Source: Candidatus Auribacterota bacterium
GTDB lineage: Bacteria; Auribacterota; JAFGBW01
Direction of reading: 5' to 3'
NCBI GenBank assembly: GCA_016932965.1
Contig: JAFGBW010000276.1
Span: 1 to 5,777, forward strand
DNA length: 5,777 bases
Below, in pieces: positions 1-5,777 of this stretch. The stretch's first letter is position 1. Every line of letters begins with the position of its first letter. A program made the translations under genes and the position numbers. The notes beneath the pieces were generated by a model. It did not search any database and was not told the origin of the DNA. It worked only from the letters and a program-made list of their open reading frames with translations.

Positions 1-105
1 AGGCATGTTCTTTGTGGAATACACCCTGAATACCGGGTGATGATCTTCCCTTTTTTTGCCGGGAGCAAATTCAATTTCAGAAAGAAGGGTCTTTTCATTT
101 TCTTC
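1..105 (-). other. C-terminal flank of module 2, running off the window
   Basis: Residues 1891-1925 (for example LLSEIEFAPGKKREDHHPVF) continue without a stop to the window edge. The His-His pair at 1912-1913 and the short strand FRVYS are the only notable points. The domain it belongs to is cut off. Confidence 0.4.
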
Positions 106-3100
106 CATCAGCGGGACCTCTCTGCCTTCATAATCTTTGATGAAAATCTGGAAATTTTCGTTGCAGGCCATGCCTGCAAAGGTTCTCCATAAATCCCGGG
201 CAATCATCTGCTCGAGCTCGGGAACAGAATTGGAGAGTCTCTTGATCCTTCTGACTGTGACGCCCTCTGGAATTTCTTCCGTGATTTCGCGCACTTTTGT
301 CAGAACAACAGTAACCGGTTCGCCGGATGCACCTCTTTTTACTTCCAGAAAAAATTGCACCCTGCGCCCTTCTTTATTGGAGGAAATGATTTCCACGCGG
401 TCCATGTCATTGAAAACCGTGAATTTTCCTGTTCCGAAAGTGCCGGCAAAATCAATCTGGTCCCCTTCCTTTTTCATGGATTTTTCTATGAGAAGAGCCG
501 TCTCACTCAACGCGCCTGTGCCGTTGTCCGTCACTTCCTCGACGAATTCATCTTTAACCGTGTCCCGAAAAAAATCGATCACGAGTTTTCCCTTTTTGTC
601 TTTTGTGGCATCAATGGAATTCTGGGTGATTTCAGCCTTATCCCCTCCGGCCTCCCTCTGCACCGTGACGTTCCTGACAATGGCTGAATCAATGGAATTT
701 GACTTTTCAGGCAGTGTATTCCCCTCAACGGCCTGTTTCAGGTATGTCAGGGGCATGACAGAGCCGGGGGTTTTTCCGGGTCTGGCCTCTTCCAGGAGCT
801 GTATCCGGGAAAGCTCGACATCGCCGTCAGGCATGTCCCAATTGTTTCCCTGCAATTCCGCCCGGCTATCCTCCCTCACTAAAGGACAGTTTAAAGTAAA
901 AAAATCAGCATAGGATCTGGCCGGGCCTATAGCAGCGGCTTTTTTCCGGTCAAAGGCCGTGGTATAGGCATTCAGATTCGTCTGGCTGACCTTTTCAAAA
1001 GCCTTGCTCATCCTGGAAATGAAATTGGACCTGGCGGATTCGCTCAATTGCAGTAACTTCCGGACCTGGAAAACCGATTTTTCCATGTTGCCGGGGGATT
1101 TGAGGCTGAATTCAGAGAGTAACTGGATGATTTTCATGATGGTCAAAGGAGGGGACGCTTCTTTTTTCAGCTCTTCGATCAGGCGGTACAAGGGTTGTGA
1201 AACGAGCTCTTCATTATTTTTATCGGCAAGGGGAGTTGACCACCCGTATCCCCAAAGCTCAAAGGTTTCATCGGTCAAATCCTTGAGGCTGATATTCTCA
1301 TCCGCAATGGTTGTAAAAAGATCCAATACCAGGTTTGTTGAAATCTGTCTTCGTTCCTCGGCATTACTTTGCTGGAGCATTCGCAGACCGGTTTCGGACC
1401 GGGTGAATTCCTCCAGACGTTTCAGTCCCGCCTCCATTCTCCGGTTGAACAGGGCTATGGCCAGGGATGAATCTTTATAGACTGGAGCTGACTGACCCTC
1501 GTGCGCTTCCCTTAACTGGCGTAATACCATCTGTTCGTGCTTCTGGTACAAATTTTCTATATCAGGCCGCATGAGCTGATGGATATCCCCTGTATAGGAG
1601 GGAAGCAGTCTTTGGATTTCCTCCATGAATTGACTGTAACCGGCCTGGGCTTGGCTGATCCATCTGTCCCTGGCAGGCTGGACATGAGTTTTCCAGGCTT
1701 CCGCATATTCAGGAGTTGTCTCCCAGGCAGATTCAGGTCTCAGCGTCAGGTCAGGAAGAAGAGGGGTGTTTGCAACCATCAATTCGTGTTGCTTAGAAGA
1801 AGCGAATTCCTGTGAAAAATAGCCTTGCAGTTCGGAAATCAATCCTATTTCGCCTTTTTTCATCAAATAGGAAATGACCATCGTAAAAGCCTGCCCCCCT
1901 GTGGCAGGATCTAAACGATCTCCATCGTGGAAGGCTGGGTTGGCTGATAGGTCAAAGGCAGGAGATGCAGCGTCTGGCTGAGCAGATGTCATGATTCCGG
2001 GAAAATACCTGGTTATGATTTCAACCACTTTGTGCGGAGAAGTCTCCCTGGTTGAAAGAAGCATATGAAAAATTTCAATGATAGTGAAATTTGATTTTGG
2101 AACTTTCTCTCCTGATTGAATTTCAAATAAATTTTCCGCGGCCTGACTTTCAGTTAGCTGTCCTTTTTCCAATTGATAGTAAACATCAAAAAGTGTCCAG
2201 AATGCAGTCTGGCCTGAAAATTGACCGTGAAACAGTTTGTATTGTGATGGATTTTTGTCTTTGAGTTCTTTCAGGGGACTGAAAATCAAATGACGGAATT
2301 CAGGCCTGTTTTGCAATACGGCAGTCATTAAATTTTTGACCACAATAATCCATGCGGGATATCTGAGCAGTAATTCAAAAATTTTCTGTATTTCTTCTTC
2401 AGAAAGGAGCGTAATCTTGTCAGGTATTTTAACGGATATGGTATTATAAATCTCAAGGGCATGGTTGAAATCCTTTTTTTCCATATGAGACAAACAAACC
2501 TGCAGCATGAGTTTGAGATTATAGTCCGTGTCAGAACTGCTCGAGCTGATCGAGCCGGCTGTTACTGAACCTACTGCAATAGCCTCATCGTTTTTAGAGT
2601 AAACCGTATACCTGCTCATCATATTTGAAGGATAGGAATAGTCGTGGGGATAGGAGGCTACTTTGTCCGCGAACTCCGGCAGTCTTTGGAGCTCACTCAT
2701 ATAGGCATCTAACCGGTTTTGTTCTGCCATTATGCGTAAAAAATTGGGTAATTGCTTCAGCAGTTCAGCCAGATGGGCATGGGGGGTTCCCTGATCCTGG
2801 TCGTGTATGAGTATGAAATCAATCACCTCGGTTTCAATAGCCGGCCCCTGTTTTTTTGCGAATTGAATGGCCTGAGCGTATTTCCCCTGATTCAACAAGG
2901 CTTGTGTGATTTTCTGCAGATTGCGGATATCAGAATAATAATTGGTTTGTTTTTTTCCGTCTTCAGGATTCTTTCTGATAATGGCTCGAATCAGATACTC
3001 GAATATTTCCTGAGTGCATAGGGATTCTGCTAAGGCTTTTGCCTCCTGATAGGCATGATCCGTGTCAAGCCCCACATAGAGGTCTATCAATGCCCGGGTT

Positions 3101-5777
3101 TTTTGCGCCTCTCCGACAGCGCCTATCATTTCCATTGGTGTGGCTCTTACGGCTTGTATTTTCGGCAGAATGTCATCCCTGACATATTCCGCCAGTTGGG
3201 GATCTCCTGTTGCCAAAAGCTCATCGGCTGCTGCCCGGTATTCTCCAAAATTTTTAGGGGTGTCCGCCGCAGTGGGTAATGTAAATGAATCAAAATGCGA
3301 CAAATCCGCTGTGCCGGTTTCTTCAAACAAACACCGGACTAATCTCGCCGCGGCTGATGGGGAACGGCTTTCACGGATGCTGCAGCGGGGAATGAGAGGA
3401 ACTAATCCTGGTATTTTATCCTTCCTTCCGGTTTTGCCGTACATGCGGATAACAGAGAGCAGTCCCTCGAATGGGCTGACGCCATATTCTGAATGGAAAT
3501 CAAAGGTCACATCATTCAGTTCACCCGCGAATTTATCGGCGATCCGCAGAATTTCCTCCCGGTTCATCATCTGCGTCATCGCTATTTCAGGAGTCTGTAA
3601 AAATTTTCCGAGCGCTTCTGCATCCGCCTCTCCCAGGGGTTTTGTCCCTGCCGGGGAAGGCGCTGAAGGCGTGACACTCAACTCAGCCGGTGCCTCATGG
3701 ATTTCATAATCGGTTCTCGGAACAACCGGTGTGAATCCCTGGATCGAAGAGAGTAAAAATTCCAGATGCATTGCCTCTGTTTCGGTTAAACCTGTTTTCT
3801 GTTTTTCCATGAAATCAATGACCCGTTTTCCGATTTGACTGGGTATGACAACAAATCCCTCGCCGCGGATAATGGGCGTGCGCCTGCCGTCAGGCCAGGT
3901 GTGCCAGGAAAGATTCAGATTGGCCCCCCATTTATTCTCAAACTCTTTTCCGGCAAAAGGAACGCTGATCACCGGGATCTTATTGGTTCCGCCTGCATTA
4001 ACTTGAGGGATGATTTCTCCGCCCAGGGATAGGAGGTTCACTCCCTGCCAGTTGAAAAGATAGGGATTCAGGTAGACAGCCGTTTTACCTTCAGGAATGG
4101 CGATGGATTGGTAGACAGGGTCATGCGGCAGAAAGACAAAATGATTTTTTACCATCTCCGTTATCAAAGGCTCCATGGCCTTTCTGGCTTCCATGCGGAT
4201 ATCTTTGACCAGGGTTTCATATTTGTTGTTGCCTCTGGCCATTTCCTCCATGCCCGCGATGATGGAATTGATGAAGCGGATTTTTTGTTCAGGCTTTAAT
4301 TCATCGTTTGCCAGAAGTTTTTTAATAAGGGACACGGCGGCTTTTTGAAAGCGTCTGTCCATGATCACACTGTCCCTTGTTTCAGGGACAGACATCATCC
4401 TCCCCATTTCAACCAGCATGCCTCCTTTGACACTATCATCTGTGATGACCCCTGCCGGAATTTTCACGGCCCTGATCACTTCGCCGTTTCGTGAGAAATA
4501 GATCATGTCGGGCAGGGTCTTGTCATGCACGAGCTGTCCCTTTTCCTCCAATTCCTTCTCTTCATCCGTCAGAGGCTCTTCGCCTTTTGTTCCTCTGCCT
4601 TTGACAAACATCCGGGAAGTGACGGGTGCATCCATGCCTCTGCCGTTGTCAACAATGGCTATTTTATTGCGTGTGATATTGACCTTGACGAACAAGTCAG
4701 GCCTGAAATGGCCCGGCTTGGCTCCGTGGGGCACCAGGAAATTCTTGGTGTCAAAACCGTTTACAGGCACATAACCTTCACCGTTCCGGTTTACTGAAAC
4801 ATCCACGTCTGTCACAAAGGGAAATTTTGTTCTGATTTTATTGTCCAGGGTTTCCTGGGAATTCACCTGTATTTCAGTGCTGATAAGAGGAAGCGGATTT
4901 TGAAAGGACACCCTCACAATGGTGCCGCGGTTCATTTTTTCACCCTCCTCATCCCCGATTTCTTTTTTGGCCGCTTCTTTATAATCCTCAACGGAAACCG
5001 GTTTGATGGAGATATAATATCCTCCGTTCGGCGCCCTTATGATGGACAAATGATGAGCTTTTTCAGCCTTGTCGGTTTTGGTATACACATCCACCCGGTC
5101 GCCGGTATGTTCCAGCCAGGCGAGGATCTGTTTGATCCCTTTGCCGAACTGGCCGATTTTATAGCCGTTCGCATCCAATCCGTTGGAAATCGCCTCCAGT
5201 ATGCTTTGCGGTTTTGCCTCCCTGCTTTGTTTGCTGATCTCGTCATCCAGATAGGGATTTTGATAGGAGGTGCCGTTTAAGAGGTTGATGACTCTTTCAG
5301 GAAGATTATTTTCAATTAATTTTTCAAAGATTTTTTGGGAAAGTTCTTCATCTGCCACCCATGGATCGATTCGAAGCTCGGAGCGGATTTGCCTGAGGGT
5401 ATCTTCGGAGACCAGATCTATTTCCGAGAGCCGTCTGATGGCCACCACAAAATGTTCCAGGTCAATGCCTGAAAAATCACCGTGTTTAAAGGCAGATGCT
5501 TCACGCCTGTTTTTTATCGCCACAGCTTCCTCAGAAACCGGTTCAGGAGGCAGGGCTTCTGCCGCGGCAGGAACAGGCGCTGTTTCAGGACCGAAATCCA
5601 TGGGCAGGACTGGCGCGTTGCTTAAACGGGTAACTGTATCATGATACTCTGAAATAGGAGAATGATCGTATAAGCGTAACTGCGTCTGATCGTCCTGGGG
5701 AATCCACTCCTGAGTCAATGATTGGGATGAGAGTAAATACAGAATACCCACGCCGCATTCCCCGGCCACCTGGGATA
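1..5777 (-). CDS. Giant multidomain protein with two GHKL ATPase modules (partial at both ends)
   Basis: One minus-strand frame is open across the whole window: no in-frame tta, cta or tca triplet appears on the plus strand in phase with position 1. It yields 1925 complete codons plus a partial codon at 5776-5777. The translation has balanced, protein-like composition throughout. It contains two GHKL ATP-binding modules (residues about 184-400 and 1700-1890) joined by a mainly helical region with TPR-like stretches, beta-rich parts and low-complexity linkers. No signal peptide or clear transmembrane helix is visible, so the visible part is probably cytoplasmic. GHKL proteins bind ATP and usually dimerise or change shape on hydrolysis; the substrate here is unknown. 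The start and stop lie outside the window. The first in-frame ATG (M59, 5599-5601) has no ribosome binding site and the open frame continues upstream of it, so I do not take it as the start. I do not recognise a named family for the full protein. Confidence 0.95.
106..678 (-). other. GHKL ATPase module 2, canonical motif order
   Basis: Residues 1700-1890. The lead QREAG (1706-1710) precedes the N-box AEITQNSIDATK, with E1715 as candidate catalytic base, N1719 as Mg ligand and D1722-A1723. Strands (KLVIDFF) lead to the G1 loop EVTDNGTGAL (D1750, G1752, G1754). A lid-like segment LLIEKSMKKEGD (1761-1772) follows, then the G2 loop AGTFGTGKF (G1778, G1781, G1783). Downstream strands (DRVEIIS, VQFFLEV) and EGVTVRR (1837-1843) match the GTxV strand position of the fold. 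A beta segment (FQIFIKDYEGREVPLM) follows, as it does in module 1. Gyrase, MutL, Hsp90 and MORC families share these motifs; I cannot place it in any one of them. All residues needed for ATP binding and hydrolysis appear intact. Confidence 0.85.
1891..1989 (-). other. Pro/Ala/Asp-rich break in the helical region
   Basis: Residues 1263-1295 (for example AQPDAASPAFDLSANPAFHD) lack helix-forming periodicity and are rich in Pro, Ala, Ser and Asp. They look like a disordered loop dividing the solenoid into two blocks. Confidence 0.5.
2527..2553 (-). other. Serine-run linker inside the helical region
   Basis: Residues 1075-1083 (SISSSSSDT) contain five consecutive Ser encoded by mixed AGC, TCG, AGT and TCT codons, so this is not a simple DNA repeat. 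It probably forms a loop between helical blocks. Confidence 0.5.
3610..3720 (-). other. Second Pro/Ala-rich linker
   Basis: Residues 686-722 are rich in Pro, Ala, Ser, Glu and Thr (for example HEAPAELSVTPSAPSPAG). They separate the beta-rich region and its helical tail from the long helical part. The composition suggests a flexible, disordered linker. Confidence 0.65.
3841..4158 (-). other. Beta-rich region of unknown family
   Basis: Residues 540-645 alternate short hydrophobic strands with Gly, Asn and Pro turns (HFVFLPHDP, KTAVYLNPYLF, KIPVISVPFAG, WGANLNLSWHTW, RGEGFVVIP). Tryptophan and aromatic residues are enriched compared with the helical parts of the protein. No HExxH, Walker or other catalytic motif is visible. 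It may be a beta-sandwich or ligand-binding domain; I cannot name it. Confidence 0.45.
4159..4575 (-). other. Charged helical region after module 1
   Basis: Residues 401-539 start with a highly charged helix-like segment (LTDEEKELEEKG, residues 402-413) and a short strand pair (MIYFSRNG, EVIRAVKIP). They continue with amphipathic helices (for example FQKAAVSLIKKLLANDEL and YETLVKDIRMEARKAMEPL). No family is recognised. Its position behind the ATP lid suggests a transducer or stalk for module 1, which is inference. Confidence 0.4.
4630..4653 (-). other. Displaced G1 loop (DNGRG) of module 1
   Basis: Residues 375-382 read VDNGRGMD, a near-ideal GHKL G1 box (DxGxG followed by Met) in which the Asp contacts the adenine amino group. 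It lies about 165 residues after the G2 loop instead of before it. Confidence 0.75.
4944..4949 (-). promoter_or_regulatory. Internal Shine-Dalgarno-like AGGAGG ahead of M281
   Basis: On the minus strand a perfect AGGAGG (4949 to 4944) precedes an in-frame ATG (4935-4933, M281) with an 8-base spacer, an ideal bacterial ribosome-binding geometry. It falls in the acidic segment GDEEGEKM inside module 1, between the G2 half and the GTIV strand. The gene clearly does not begin here, because conserved GHKL sequence lies upstream. It could cause an internal start or a ribosome pause, or simply reflect Glu-Glu-Gly codons. Confidence 0.3.
5125..5208 (-). other. Abutting N-box and G2 loop of module 1
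   Basis: Residues 190-217 contain the N-box (E194, N198, D201, A202) and the GxxGxG G2 loop (G208, G211, G213), separated by only NGYKI. A canonical module has strands, the G1 loop and a lid between these two motifs; module 2 of this same protein has about 55 residues there. Confidence 0.75.
5227..5490 (-). other. Helical lead-in to GHKL module 1
   Basis: Residues 96-183 are rich in Leu, Ile, Glu, Lys and Arg in amphipathic helix-like spacing (for example HFVVAIRRLSEIDL and LSQKIFEKLIENNLPERVINLL). The stretch runs straight into the conserved REA lead of the first N-box. I recognise no specific family. It may be a small helical bundle packing on the ATPase module. Confidence 0.45.
5521..5592 (-). 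other. Pro/Ala/Glu-rich linker
   Basis: Residues 62-85 are dominated by Pro, Ala, Glu and Val (for example APVPAAAEALPPEPVSEE). This is typical of a flexible, disordered interdomain linker. It separates the N-terminal edge segment from the helical lead-in to the first ATPase module. Confidence 0.7.
5590..5775 (-). other. N-terminal edge segment of the giant protein with a Gln-x4-Cys-Gly motif
   Basis: Residues 1-62 of the fragment begin SQVAGECGVGILYLL. A Gln (Q2) is followed five residues later by Cys-Gly (C7-G8) and then a hydrophobic helix-like stretch (residues 9-15). This resembles the catalytic-cysteine neighbourhood of papain-like or C39-type peptidases, in which an oxyanion Gln precedes a Cys at the start of a helix. 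The sequence upstream is missing. Histidines follow at H38 and H45 (the first in the segment YDHSP), but I cannot show that either completes a catalytic pair. Cysteine is otherwise scarce in the protein. The domain could equally be the tail of an unrelated upstream domain, so the peptidase reading is weak. Confidence 0.25.

Follow-up and report, generated by a model that had tools for sequence, protein, structure and literature searches.

Can the nucleotide-binding pocket of a GHKL-type ATPase be encoded with its motifs in a changed order, and is such an order the property of a family or the accident of one contig? The question is raised by the window, here meaning the whole stretch of 5,777 nucleotides that was analysed, which is one entire contig (C67) in a draft genome of Candidatus Auribacterota (3.1 Mb, 92.6% complete). 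A single frame on its minus strand encodes most of a large protein with two GHKL-type modules, and in the first of them, module 1, the motifs run in the order N-box, G2, GTxV, G1, with the G1 loop behind the GTxV strand. This order recurs in every one of 28 aligned relatives from two phyla.

Motif order in module 1 and its conservation

The features on which the argument rests are given below with their positions in the window and, where useful, their conservation in A6, an alignment and profile of 28 transposed-order members from Candidatus Auribacterota and Omnitrophota.

Positions 1 to 5775, minus strand: stop-free frame of 1,925 residues, open at both contig ends.
Positions 4096 to 5244, minus strand: module 1, a GHKL-type ATP-binding domain with transposed G1, together with the following conserved domain (residues 178-560; A6 profile, E 7e-181 over residues 146-679).
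Positions 5170 to 5196, minus strand: N-box EAISNGLDA, residues 194-202 (E and N in 28/28, D in 27/28, A in 26/28).
Positions 5137 to 5157, minus strand: G2 box IGQFGKG, residues 207-213, starting five residues past the N-box alanine (F and last G in 28/28).
Positions 4915 to 4926, minus strand: GTxV strand (GTIV), residues 284-287 (G in 28/28, T in 26/28).
Positions 4582 to 4707, minus strand: transposed G1 block, residues 357-398, with two strands, DNGRGMD, a helix and the start of the lid.
Positions 4630 to 4653, minus strand: G1 motif VDNGRGMD, residues 375-382 (D and second G in 28/28, M in 27/28).
Positions 4096 to 4563, minus strand: domain behind the G1 block, residues 405-560, common to canonical-order sister proteins (A6 positions ~266-464).
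Positions 4375 to 4377, minus strand: R467 in a PETRDSV motif (R in 25/28, K in 3/28).

The sequence-only reading had proposed that the N-box of module 1 leads into G2 with no G1 in between, and that the only G1 lies downstream. Upon re-reading of the translation, EAISNGLDA, IGQFGKG, GTIV and VDNGRGMD were found at the residues given above and, in the 28 aligned relatives, only 3 to 11 residues separate the N-box alanine from G2, so that a second G1 at that place is impossible. All GHKL motifs (N-box E...N..DA, G1 DxGxG, G2 GxxGxG and GTxV) are kept across the alignment, and none of its members has the canonical GHKL order. In window numbering, E194, N198, F210, G213, Q216, G284, N339, D376 and G380 are invariant, and D201, A202, I207, G208, G211, T285, G378 and M381 are nearly so. 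Among these residues, E194 is a candidate general base, N198 a candidate Mg ligand and D376 a candidate adenine ligand, and R467 could possibly correspond to the catalytic arginine of Hsp90.

The relatives were gathered stepwise. The first was a weak match in G020, found in a search of related genomes, this being Candidatus Theseobacter exili (locus L024), which is placed by NCBI in Candidatus Auribacterota and belongs to the same phylum as the window genome. Its protein of 3,026 residues aligned with the window protein over ~380 residues (E 1.4e-13) and presents the same swapped order, with ELAANGIDA (849), GRFGVG (868) and DSGTGM (1002); a profile search then matched a second genome, G012. 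The window protein alone matched nothing in the genome contig or viral contig collections. A three-row profile, however, retrieved from the genome contig collection the contigs of G020 (L024) and G012 (L025, labelled Chlamydiae) together with L026 and L027 (labelled Omnitrophica/Omnitrophota), where the single protein had failed; the viral contig collection again gave nothing. Applied to 384 genomes mostly outside Auribacterota, the three-row profile gave just two further short marginal matches (E 0.006-0.008). Within Omnitrophota, a five-row profile matched 32 of 384 genomes. With the 28-row profile, matches came from 48 of 384 genomes belonging to one class, and by count 26 of these matches were long and colinear; profile searches found carriers in 3 of 44 Auribacterota genomes. 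Three more members outside A6 (L105, L113 and L121) have the same order. Relatives sharing the layout thus occur in independent assemblies of different species, and the layout is a conserved family property rather than something peculiar to a single contig.

The window is a short draft-assembly contig with k-mer ends, which could have suggested an error of assembly or frame, or a G1-like motif arisen by chance behind a broken domain, as the source of the order. Since independent assemblies of different species share the order, misassembly is excluded, and the invariant motif residues seen with this order in many genomes of two phyla leave the explanation as a whole with almost no probability. 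A further alternative is that module 1 is a relic in which ATP binding is broken and the residues are retained for folding or protein contacts only. Degenerate motifs in a few members and the lack of an obvious ATP supply for exported proteins would be in line with it, but 28 members with no more than 16-39% identity to the window all keep E194, N198 and D376, which a purely structural role explains poorly, and thus a relic appears unlikely. The degenerate cases include L060 (in G689) and L056 (in G472), in which the N-box or G1 has decayed (LLSNAQGQ and DSREGM; DHADGM) and which may be pseudo-ATPases.

Canonical sisters and kinship with Hsp90

Omnitrophota giant proteins also include sister proteins with the canonical order (L072, L073, L076-L079, L126 and L129), in which N-box, G1, G2 and GTxV are followed by the same domain as in the transposed family (A6 ~266-464), and which carry no second G1 downstream. 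They match A6 as out-of-order pieces because their own order is canonical. The moved G1 block of L024 aligns without gaps to the canonical block of L072 over 37 residues, ~16 of which are identical by hand count (~43%, the highest value for these sisters), and one genome, G569, carries both kinds of protein, transposed (L045) and canonical (L073). Homologs with G1 between N-box and G2 therefore do occur, but only as this sister group without a downstream copy, which shows that the canonical sisters represent the ancestral state and leaves the transposition unrefuted. In two of the sisters, L076 and L077, module 1 has long extra stretches between G1 and G2, which are unusual lid insertions.

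An IQ-TREE tree was calculated from 40 rows (the 28 transposed rows, canonical rows and HtpG) with the blocks set in a common order. All 28 transposed rows fell on one side of a branch that sets them off, with good, though not decisive, support (92/92), from the canonical and HtpG rows, and the transposition is likely to have been a single event. Moreover, the window module pairs with L027 (100/87) inside a 17-row clade, the other rows of which all belong to Omnitrophota, while the two remaining members from Auribacterota, L024 and L025, are placed elsewhere, beside L026. At least one transfer between Auribacterota and Omnitrophota is likely, because the window module nests in an otherwise Omnitrophota clade despite coming from an Auribacterota genome.

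Compared with the PDB, the A6 profile found the N-domains of Hsp90 and TRAP1 (E 8e-9) as its best matches, and did so in three separate stretches out of order: A6 positions 44-61 (N-box), 202-265 (G1) and 59-186 (from G2 to where the ATPase domain ends) correspond to TRAP1 48-65, 76-135 and 126-230, respectively. This is the signature expected of a transposed block. In addition, A6 was split into N, G2-GTxV and G1 blocks, and all six block orders were compared with five HtpG proteins from Auribacterota genomes. The order N-G1-G2 alone produced a single colinear match to HtpG that spanned the three blocks together (42-51 bits; hhalign P 1.6e-14), whereas in the native order no segment exceeded 13 bits (hhalign P 5.8e-6) and the other four orders gave at best two-block matches of up to 38 bits (hhalign P 5e-11 to 1e-5). 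Together with the canonical sisters, these results support the idea, put forward in the sequence-only reading, that the strand-G1-lid block was moved from between N-box and G2 to a place behind GTxV.

That reading had also denied a simple circular permutation. If the GHKL domain were simply circularly permuted, its motif order would indeed change, as observed, but N-G2-GTxV-G1 is no rotation of N-G1-G2-GTxV, and the rotated controls G2-N-G1 and G1-G2-N gave a poorer fit to HtpG than the restored order did, so that this explanation is scarcely credible.

The transposed order accounts for the failure of standard profile models to recognize module 1. Scans of the native window protein against Pfam, NCBIfam and PADLOC reported only module 2, and this weakly, leaving module 1 unmatched, and the Pfam HSP90 model (PF00183) did not match the window protein. 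With Pfam HATPase models, the native-order cores of the window and L024 gave no match and that of L044 stayed below the cut-off. Once the order was restored, L024 (30.5 bits) and L044 (32.3 bits) both passed HATPase_c_3 (cut-off 25 each), and the window reached 23.1 bits with HATPase_c, just below the cut-off of 26.4. Judged by these profile and sequence comparisons, module 1 is homologous to GHKL (Bergerat-fold) ATPases, although it falls outside a definition of these enzymes by canonical motif order.

With the N-domain of Hsp90, TRAP1 and HtpG, module 1 shares the N-box ExxxNxxDA, DxGxGM, GxFGxG and GTxV, all of them kept. It differs from them in having G1 behind GTxV and no detectable Hsp90 middle domain, and in belonging to very large, probably exported proteins; an ordinary HtpG is encoded separately in the window genome, on contig C43. 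The Bergerat motifs are also common to MutL, GyrB, MORC and sacsin-type proteins (HATPase_c, HATPase_c_3 and P_loop_sacsin), and two of the three restored test sequences pass HATPase_c_3; however, the order differs, and in its native order module 1 of the window matches none of these models. Natural enzymes rarely show the non-circular transposition of an active-site segment within one domain, and for the GHKL fold no description of such a transposition was found in the open-licence literature searched on permuted GHKL folds.

A proposed pocket rebuilt within one chain

The explanation favoured here, to which a probability of roughly three in four is given, is that module 1 represents a genuine nucleotide-binding domain of the Bergerat fold, with a block of ~40 residues shifted into the linker between the last ATPase strand and the following domain. 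It builds on the order itself, on its conservation together with the key residues, on the homology between the transposed and the canonical G1 blocks and on the single grouping in the tree. The block, consisting of two strands, the G1 loop DxGxGM, a helix and the start of the lid, would have stood ancestrally between the N-box helix and G2, and a likely route is that the segment was duplicated into the linker and the original copy then lost. In the canonical GHKL fold, the N-box helix ends facing the phosphates, as the G2 loop also does, and the G1 strand has the GTxV strand as its neighbour; because of this geometry, a direct link from N-box to G2 and an entry of G1 behind GTxV could rebuild the pocket. 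Thus, the N-box helix would run straight into the G2 loop, the G1 strands would return to their sheet from the opposite side, next to the GTxV strand, and the same pocket would be formed in the same chain along an altered path, with D376 reaching E194, N198 and G208-G213, as the sequence-only reading supposed. The module may then bind ATP-Mg, with lid closure and the arginine-bearing following domain acting as a clamp. The most likely use would be a clamp-like ATP cycle, perhaps pairing modules 1 and 2 of one chain.

The pocket could also be completed in trans, the G1 serving the N-box and G2 of either another chain or module 2 in a manner resembling a domain swap, with no chain forming a full site by itself. 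The G1 aspartate lies 75-98 residues past GTxV, beyond a region of variable insertions, and each chain has two modules, both of which would suit such an arrangement. However, module 2 of the window is already provided with a G1 at the usual position, and the last strand-G1 stretch looks long enough for a contact in cis, which is also simpler, so that completion in trans seems improbable.

Several points temper the case for a rebuilt functional pocket of Hsp90 kinship and single origin. Structure predictions with AlphaFold from five input sequences were of low confidence, both for window residues 95-670 (predicted local distance difference test, pLDDT, 50; predicted template modelling score, pTM, 0.41) and for the L024 core (pLDDT 56, pTM 0.57, with a middle part at ~80). 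Foldseek found nothing significant with the low-confidence L024 core model, and VIA-align, used on the same model, returned N-domains of Hsp90, TRAP1 and GRP94 across its best rows with a best Z of only 4.1, the match being limited to model residues 1-172, that is, without G1. At most suggestive, these structural comparisons speak neither for nor against the pocket. The domain following G1 showed no relation to the HtpG middle domain (hhalign P 0.39), a comparison with five rather similar HtpG sequences that leaves room for a distant relation, and its identification as an Hsp90 middle domain is therefore unsupported. In the tree, the canonical rows were aligned to the transposed-row profile, which may favour the observed grouping. 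Finally, most members carry a signal-peptide-like segment at their start, although no ATP would be expected beyond the cytoplasm.

A conserved transposed family suggests that an ancient fold can be rewired within one domain. Since canonical sisters with the same following domain exist, a comparison of the states before and after is permitted, providing a natural experiment on chain connectivity, fold and lid motion.

Whole-protein layout and probable export

Beyond module 1, the following features belong to the same protein:

Positions 1 to 708, minus strand, on into contig C75: module 2, a GHKL domain in the ordinary order (N-box 607-633, G1 514-528, G2 427-444; Pfam HATPase_c_3, E 0.0026, below cut-off).
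Contig C75 (locus L007), positions 3 to 1199: C-terminal continuation of the window protein, carrying HEIAHLLEQ, a HExxH zincin-like motif.

The ordinary order claimed earlier for module 2 was recovered, with EITQNSIDA at residues 1715-1723, DNGTG at 1750-1754 and GTFGTG at 1778-1783; in NCBIfam, this module weakly resembles the sacsin domain (P_loop_sacsin), below cut-off. At its low end, the window shares an overlap of exactly 65 bases with contig C75 from the same genome, which adds 377 residues, giving 2,303 residues to the stop, so that the window holds most of that protein. No contig continuing the opposite, N-terminal end of the frame was found in the same genome. The start of the window frame, SQVAGECGV..., resembles FAQVAGQLNV..., the residues directly after the signal-peptide-like segment of the relative L095, and for this reason probably only ~20-40 residues are absent, the protein's own signal segment lying just past the contig end.

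The layout was examined in longer stretches around 20 loci. Most transposed members that are long enough present module 1, then, after ~550-2,600 residues, a canonical module 2, and a HExxH motif 150-260 residues further on; L097-L099 have the same layout, but with a canonical module 1. A hydrophobic segment preceded by K/R was found near the start in 16 of the 18 members with an upstream stop, many of which then show A-x-A-like sites, and a signal-like segment was recognized by eye in one additional member, L094; these calls are based on simple hydropathy and not on a trained predictor. Signal-peptide-like starts are thus present in most of the complete relatives (L080-L096) despite their two ATPase-type modules, and the proteins are probably exported. 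The window protein is a large and probably exported relative of ATPases of the Hsp90/MutL type, with two modules and, towards the C-terminus, a HExxH motif.

Such a protein could possibly meet ATP by acting inside or on another cell. Tentatively, and with more doubt than confidence, module 1 might be seen as a functional GHKL ATPase with a non-circularly rearranged pocket derived from a single ancestral event, its lid closure coupled straight to the following domain and the enzyme acting outside the producer, for instance on prey or host nucleotides. In Omnitrophota, giant open reading frames of >20 kb are common, contain few annotated domains and have been proposed to function in adhesion or predation (PMC10066038). 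The transposed-family members are mostly smaller than these >20-kb frames. The family nevertheless provides a concrete domain assignment inside Omnitrophota giant proteins, whose roles are called poorly understood (PMC10066038). A further long frame, L009 of Candidatus Theseobacter exili (1065-16376), encodes 5,103 residues, with an N-terminal part like those of the G020 and G012 relatives. This part might contain a TraB-like domain, which is no more than a guess.

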